NCBI RefSeq assembly: GCF_002283555.1
Contig: NZ_MVOI01000012.1
Span: 3,931 to 67,930 of the forward strand
Direction of reading: 5' to 3'
Origin: Rubrivirga sp. SAORIC476
GTDB taxonomy: Bacteria > Bacteroidota > Rhodothermia > Rhodothermales > Rubricoccaceae
DNA: 64,000 nucleotides
A model generated the notes under the pieces. It was not told the DNA's origin, searched no databases, and worked only from the letters and a program-made list of their open reading frames with translations. Shown here in pieces: positions 10,793-10,871 of this stretch. Made by a program: the position numbers and the translations under genes. The first letter of the stretch is position 1; every line of letters begins with the position of its first letter.

Positions 10793-10871
10793 GTTCAGAG
10801 TGCGGAGTTCGGTGTTCGGGGCCGGACCGTGCGGGTGTTCGCTGCCGAACCCCGGACGCTCGACACCGAAC
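10793..10871. repeat. Inverted heptad array B (GTTC x4 / GAAC x4) before nuoM
   Basis: GTTC-type cores lie at 10793, 10800 (GTGC), 10807 and 10814 in strict 7-bp phase. After a 29-base centre the inverted cores lie at 10847 (GAAC), 10854 (GGAC), 10861 (CGAC) and 10868 (GAAC), again every 7 bp. The array fills the gap between the nuoL stop (10878) and the nuoM start (10789). The design is the same as arrays A and C, with a different core. Confidence 0.8.

Follow-up and report, generated by a model that had tools for sequence, protein, structure and literature searches.

A degenerate heptad array between nuoL and nuoM belongs to a dispersed class of C-rich arrays in Rubrivirga sp. SAORIC476

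What is the 7-nt repeat that occupies the spacer between nuoL and nuoM in Rubrivirga sp. SAORIC476, and does it belong to nuoM alone? The locus lies in a stretch of 64,000 nucleotides from this species (assembly GCF_002283555.1, contig NZ_MVOI01000012.1, positions 3,931 to 67,930), hereafter the window, in which nuoJ, nuoK, nuoL, nuoM and nuoN are all carried by the minus strand; the host genome, denoted G000, measures 4.48 Mb. The nuoL gene (NADH-quinone oxidoreductase subunit L; 10878..13037, stop codon 10878-10880; NF005141, E 2.5e-198) and the nuoM gene (subunit M; 9179..10789, ATG 10787-10789; TIGR01972, E 2.5e-173) are separated by 88 nt (10790-10877). The spacer holds one of a number of dispersed C-rich, 7-nt-periodic arrays that are docked at coding edges; we tentatively propose that such arrays arise by slippage and are kept through a part in translation initiation and coupling.

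The period of 7 at nuoL-nuoM is real and degenerate, and it is located in the start-proximal arm. This C-rich arm (10791..10818, minus strand) reads CGAACAC CGAACTC CGCACTC TGAACTC in the mRNA sense and is followed by a single nucleotide (g) and the nuoM ATG. Its 17 matches out of 21 at a lag of 7 nt were equalled by none of 5000 dinucleotide shuffles and were reached nowhere else in the window. The G-rich stop-proximal arm (10846..10873, minus strand) begins 4 nt past the nuoL stop, reads GGGTTCG GTGTCGA GCGTCCG GGGTTCG in the mRNA sense and is weak alone (12/21, shuffle p = 0.023). The first-pass annotation had described four GTTC and four GAAC units of the plus strand, where GTTC corresponds to GAAC of the mRNA. 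All eight coordinates are indeed heptad positions within the spacer; exact cores are restricted to three GTTC (10793, 10807 and 10814) and two GAAC units (10847 and 10868), and the other three are degenerate (GTGC at 10800, GGAC at 10854 and CGAC at 10861). The 4+4 description is therefore an overstatement. The unit step is exactly 7 inside each arm, and the two arms are 5 nt out of phase with each other. No other lag between 4 and 13 stands out in this spacer (p >= 0.3), and lag 14 gives p = 0.0036.

The nuoL-nuoM array is not nuoM-specific; it has counterparts dispersed through the genome. A search for three GAACTC heptads that tolerated up to 2 mismatches gave 43 matches in G000 and, with the reversed pattern as control, 0. 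The 43 matches fall into 15 spacers, including the focal one. The other 14 were examined in detail, and profile scans of 10 of their 14 downstream genes identified phosphoglycerate mutase, a 16S rRNA methyltransferase, DapD, purine nucleoside phosphorylase, SufD, ATP synthase delta, chorismate synthase, SecY, carbamoyl-phosphate synthase and phosphoglycerate kinase, the best model for the last being a PGK/TPI fusion that scored under its cut-off. None of the arrays in the 14 G000 loci lies inside a called gene, and one of nine does so in a relative, G004; genes were called by a script of our own instead of a published gene finder, and the calls for a further genome, G063, cover just 70% and are less certain. 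A scan of genomes for a GAACTC array followed by ATG within 4 nt found 104 stretches, with many phyla among the matches listed; it was run with no control pattern and thus indicates presence only. Separately, the reversed control (CTCAAG heptads) matches G011, G025 and G036, three genomes of one genus, 15, 5 and 5 times.

The class extends beyond GAACTC. In a 464-kb sample of G000, composed of the window and 20 evenly spaced 20-kb stretches, the lag-7 z score exceeds 4 in 10 of 176 co-directional spacers; at each of lags 4-6 and 8-11, no more than one spacer does so. The additional heptad words include GCATCCC, CTCACGC, GTACCCC, GTCACCC, ACCGACA, CTGATCT and ACCACGC, so that several words coexist in G000 in place of a single dominant one. 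Regions upstream of starts reach 14/21 more often in co-directional than in divergent arrangements (13/175 vs 2/106, Fisher p 0.036), and none of the 64 regions after stops in convergent G000 spacers does so. Plain autocorrelation over all spacers is raised at lags 4-9 and is little informative alone; lags 14 and 21 exceed their neighbours.

Where do the arrays sit relative to genes? In the 14 G000 loci, each of the 15 arms has the 3' side of its C-rich strand 6 nt or less from a coding edge, 13 of them at start codons in sense and two at stop codons in antisense. The free room available was 12-144 nt, and uniform placement predicts 2.0 docked arms, with a maximum of 9 in 100000 simulations. 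GAACTC arrays were also examined in three other genomes (all 6 listed places in G003, all 8 in G004 and 20 of 22 in G063), where the arms are flush with coding sequence (<=6 nt) in 6/8 cases in G003 and 14/22 in G063. Reading the open reading frames at the arrays supports docking for 8/8 in G003 (3 starts and 5 stops) and 15/22 in G063 (5 starts and 10 stops). Docking is directional as well, as judged from 17 strong arms of any word taken from samples of four genomes (60 kb only for G063). In ten of them a coding edge is no more than 10 nt away from the C-rich strand's 3' end, in none is one that close to the 5' end, and in 15 the 3' end is the nearer of the two (p 0.0023). Some stop-flush arrays represent the second arm of an inverted pair. 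The designation of the focal array as a "nuoM leader" is too narrow, in that similarly built arrays abut stop codons as well as starts. A leader role is likewise rejected as the sole explanation because arrays occur at stops and, in G063, even between convergent genes.

Is the geometry of the array selected in place of its bases, as the first-pass annotation had suggested? At nuoL-nuoM itself, it is not. Among 17 relatives whose nuoL-nuoM spacer could be scored (at least 42 nt; 12 further relatives have a shorter one), none carries a heptad array, and the best spacer reaches 13/21 (p 0.027). The comparison of orthologous spacers that had been suggested as a check thus found no 7-bp periodicity, which refutes conservation of the array at this junction. 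The proposal fares better at nuoK-nuoL, one gene upstream, and across the array genes at large, where sites are retained above background and words are replaced. The nuoK-nuoL spacer (13038..13120, minus strand) contains inverted arms of CATCCC/CTCCCT-type heptads, and by eye an inverted heptad pair is found in 4/4 genomes compared, with the word on both sides of the spacer being CATCCC in G000, AGTCCC in G003 and G004 and AACCCC in G002. The lag-7 scores are 17/21 in G003 (p 0.000), 14/21 in G004 (p 0.007) and 14/21 in G002 (p 0.037), and merely 13/21 in G000 itself (p 0.07).

A broader retention test located the orthologues of 27 G000 array genes by one joined query and counted as an array any spacer that reached 14/21 or more; spacers over 160 nt were trimmed to their last 100 nt, unlike those of the background. 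Arrays were found in 6/20 usable spacers in G003 (27 orthologues) vs 6/94 in the background (p 0.0066) and in 10/20 in G004 (22 orthologues) vs 4/107 (p printed as 0.0000). G002 has arrays in 10/26 orthologous spacers, with no background taken. Control lags of 5, 6, 8 and 9 gave 0-3 spacers, the values of 3 coming from lag 8 in G003 and lag 5 in G002, and an additional requirement of shuffle p <=0.01 leaves 5 retained arrays in G003, 6 in G002 and 8 in G004. The array site is thus kept between relatives, and the word is mostly replaced. The words of 22 orthologous array pairs, which come from 11 genes and are not independent, differ at a mean of 2.82 positions vs 2.70 for 495 pairs of unrelated spacers; three of the 22 pairs differ at one position and two at two. 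By eye, the nuoM start (10787-10790) lies five codons later in G000 than in three congeners (L028-L030); the G000 array sits at the former start site and may have displaced that start.

These observations also fit a purely neutral origin, in which polymerase slippage generates heptanucleotide arrays, template switching yields the inverted copy and coding sequence alone bounds their spread, with no function at all. Docking at stops between convergent genes makes such an origin nearly as likely as the account that we prefer. It would explain why words at orthologous sites differ as much as those of unrelated spacers, why arrays occur at stops as well as starts and why copy number varies at one gene (14 units in G000 vs 9 in G002, counted by eye), and the discussion in PMC4692102, as far as consulted, mentions a slippage origin of heptamers. 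A neutral origin is harder to reconcile with the one-sidedness of docking, given that only the 3' ends of the C-rich strand approach coding sequence, and with the retention of sites above background, although descent from an ancestral array could also yield retention.

The two arms of one spacer tend toward a common word. In a swap test on 16 co-directional heptad spacers of G000, the local alignment score of a spacer's 5' half with the reverse complement of its own 3' half averages 10.4 vs 6.7 when the 3' half is taken from other spacers, and the own-half score lies beyond the 95th percentile in 50% of these spacers, 33% of 6 in G003 and 50% of 6 in G004. Local duplication followed by inversion, which the first-pass annotation had put forward, is a possible origin of the arrays. 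Pairing between the 20 nt that follow the stop and the 25 nt that precede the start was assessed for 45 array spacers pooled from four genomes. The array spacers have 7.3 expected stop-to-start pairs vs 3.7 in shuffles, and 120 other spacers have 3.7 vs 4.3. Co-directional spacers at large show no clear excess in stop-to-start pairing over shuffles (0.52 vs 0.45), and we therefore reject such pairing as a general trait of co-directional spacers. The array spacers also fold better than the others, with a mean z of -2.38 and 64% below -2 (n 45), as compared with -0.79 and 17% (n 120).

At the focal spacer, a hairpin is modestly predicted: 9.0 pairs are expected between the two edges, and the spacer folded alone gives z -1.7 to -2.1. 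The middle of the spacer (10819..10845, minus strand) is the inside part of the predicted minimum free energy (MFE) fold. A 101-nt RNA that covers the locus has an MFE of -40.4 and a z of -1.26, and 21 of 200 shuffles fold at least as well. Such hairpins could act on the mRNA instead of on translation. Repetitive extragenic palindromic (REP) sequences and bacterial interspersed mosaic elements (BIMEs) form hairpins that can set unequal amounts of upstream and downstream mRNA parts, and inverted arrays might similarly protect or process operon mRNA between cistrons. The superior folding of array spacers speaks for this idea, as do 4 of the 17 scored relatives, whose nuoL-nuoM spacer is of another sequence, folds well (z below -2) and shows palindromes by eye. 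Against it, the other 13 have none by the same measure, single-armed arrays lack a matching arm, and the focal fold has a z of only -1.26. On balance, we regard a role in mRNA protection or processing as improbable. The arrays differ from REP/BIME palindromes in that the copies, when the spacers were read, have a common 7-nt unit and gene-edge placement and no common palindrome.

What might a C-rich array contribute beside a start codon? Ordinary leaders are already C-rich and poor in G (0.50-0.55 C and 0.17-0.21 G in the last 18 nt of sampled leaders) and rarely contain Shine-Dalgarno-like 4-mers (7/138 and 6/74 sampled leaders), and the C-rich array therefore looks like a lengthened ordinary leader. 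We propose that slippage of a 7-nt unit supplies heptad arrays, and that these would be favoured or tolerated beside starts because a leader rich in C and poor in G would be suited to initiation that does not use Shine-Dalgarno pairing. In operon spacers, a complementary arm past the stop would pair with the leader to form a stop-to-start hairpin, and a ribosome finishing the upstream gene would open this hairpin and expose the next start, a putative form of translational coupling. An RNA-unfolding form of coupling is described in the consulted part of a review (PMC12548453). According to such a mechanism, composition, position and complementarity would matter, and the sequence of the word would matter little. 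A more specific version appears rather unlikely to us: in it, selection maintains a sequence-independent junction element at particular operon genes, a self-complementary and C-rich stretch of period 7 that fills the gap from stop to start codon and has both arms replaced together wholesale between species.

The same composition could instead serve Rho. C-rich and G-poor RNA before coding sequence, in sense or antisense, might load Rho and stop untranslated or antisense transcription, and the docking direction of the arrays follows one rule at starts and stops alike. However, many arms are short (20-31 nt), and the spacing of Rho sites differs from 7 nt; we consider Rho loading quite improbable, more so than an mRNA hairpin. 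A promoter-like ANCTTY motif located about 23-28 nt before starts was set aside because it is weak: it is slightly enriched before divergent genes in G000 and G003 (14 vs 6.5 and 13 vs 6.8 in shuffles) and not in G004 (6 vs 6.2).

Several observations weigh against the leader and coupling account. Regarding position, only 2/9 GAACTC-type arrays are flush in G004, which is the exception among the genomes compared; in G063 and G003, more arrays are flush with stops than with starts; and 8/12 stop-flush arrays in G063 lie between convergent genes, hence outside any leader. The lag-7 excess in random samples of two relatives is small. At 15/21, lag 7 is found in 4/124 co-directional G003 spacers, the same number as lag 6, and in 5/144 co-directional G004 spacers (4 each for lags 6 and 12 and 5 for lag 14) and 4/46 divergent ones (2 for lag 6 and 3 for lag 14). 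The nuoL-nuoM array is missing from all 17 scored relatives. Regarding structure, the raised stop-start pairing is a property of the class, and the focal fold is not significant (z -1.26 for the 101-nt RNA). Only 18% of the 45 array spacers exceed all 20 shuffles on outer pairing; several single-armed start-flush arrays form 0.0-0.5 pairs, and others are no better than shuffles. In the swap test, spacers that carry no heptads and are co-directional exceed the 95th percentile in 9%, 17% and 9% of cases in G000, G003 and G004, above the 5% expected, and convergent spacers do so in 20% (n 15) and 30% (n 10) in G000 and G003 and in 5% (n 19) in G004. Finally, in one screen reported in the consulted part of PMC12548453, structure just past the stop went with less coupling.

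Are these arrays new? Tandem heptanucleotides of Calothrix carry the name STRR. Three different ones coexist in one genome of this cyanobacterium (cited in PMC4692102). TAACTGA direct repeats occur in marine Beggiatoaceae, Cyanobacteria and Bacteroidetes; in Beggiatoaceae, they lie mostly just upstream of start codons, the largest category being 1 nt upstream; Microcystis mixes several heptamers, and a translational role is suggested for TAACTGA-type repeats (PMC4679880, as far as consulted). Xanthomonas and Nostoc carry GGGAATC and GGGGA(C/T)T heptamers, and the GGGAATC repeats of Xanthomonas are arranged as inverted pairs that mostly have four units (consulted part of PMC4692102). The G000 arrays share with the TAACTGA and GGGAATC repeats their tandem 7-nt units, their dispersed and mostly intergenic copies and their docking at starts in sense or stops in antisense; they are the same kind, and the kind is already described. 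The systems differ in their words. The TAACTGA work traced one word through different genomes and saw almost no inverted pairs, 1/170 sets in BOGUAY (PMC4679880, in the part consulted), whereas inverted pairs are common here and the word is replaced at retained sites. Similarly, the consulted sections of PMC4692102 treat one G-quadruplex-forming word plus variants per genome in Xanthomonas and Nostoc, whereas here each genome has several unrelated words and the word is exchanged at retained sites. Geobacter metallireducens has dispersed elements of four or five tandem heptads, among them four-unit GGACCGG elements (49 copies) and an MTYCTGA class, which resemble the present arrays; they are annotated as putative regulatory and also occur within genes, and the consulted part of PMC2700814 does not mention docking at gene edges, which characterizes the arrays here.

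The G-quadruplex role proposed for the Xanthomonas GGGAATC repeats (PMC4692102, in the part consulted) offers another explanation, by which the G-rich strand of the arrays would be the active one. Several words do give GGG on that strand (GGGATGN, GGGACTN and GGGTACN), and G-quadruplex motifs occur in 2/6 strong-array spacers vs 28/328 others, numbers too small to judge. Nevertheless, GAACTC words contain no GGG, and a G-quadruplex at the focal locus is rejected because its spacer has no such motif; as an explanation of the class, it is very improbable. The new part of the present observations is the exchange of words at retained sites, which is undescribed in the open-licence literature as far as our searches show. 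Over-representation of heptamer repeats has been reported for many bacteria, and the literature consulted gives no proven function for them. A retained site with an exchanged word makes position and periodicity separable from sequence, and slippage, leader function and hairpin coupling thereby become distinguishable on orthologous spacers.

Other elements and neighbours at the locus were also considered. An intrinsic terminator or an Rfam family at the focal spacer is rejected: no GC-rich hairpin with a U run lies in the spacer, the sole such site in 10600-13700 being at 13238-13252, and 10500-13700 has no Rfam match above the gathering threshold. The 606-aa gene that separates nuoM from nuoN (7325-9145) gave no NCBIfam hit at 1e-10 and resembles a sodium:proton antiporter by eye. 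Two more spacers of the operon carry heptads on the minus strand. The nuoJ-nuoK spacer (13421..13491) has a CGGTNNC arm near the stop and an ACCGACA-type arm at the start codon (lag-7 z 6.4, MFE z -4.6), and the nuoN leader spacer (6962..7031) has CTGATCT/CTGACAA-type heptads with an inverted partner (lag-7 z 4.0, MFE z -2.8).

Repeats of other forms were seen in relatives. A dispersed palindrome, GCCTCTGGCGCCAGAGGC, occurs in many G004 spacers (e.g. L140, L142 and L274), and a variant of it lies in the G004 nuoL-nuoM spacer. In another family of organisms, REP-like palindromes of the form GTACGGGCG...CGCCCCTAC fill the nuoL-nuoM spacers L035, L036 and L037 (G039, G017 and G029). The GGGTTCT and GGGTACT arrays of G004 (L274, L287 and L288) have different words and the common ending GGGTAAAG. 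Upstream of aroC (L114), G002 contains about 10 copies of the 9-mer CCCGCTCGT where G000 carries a GAACTC array.
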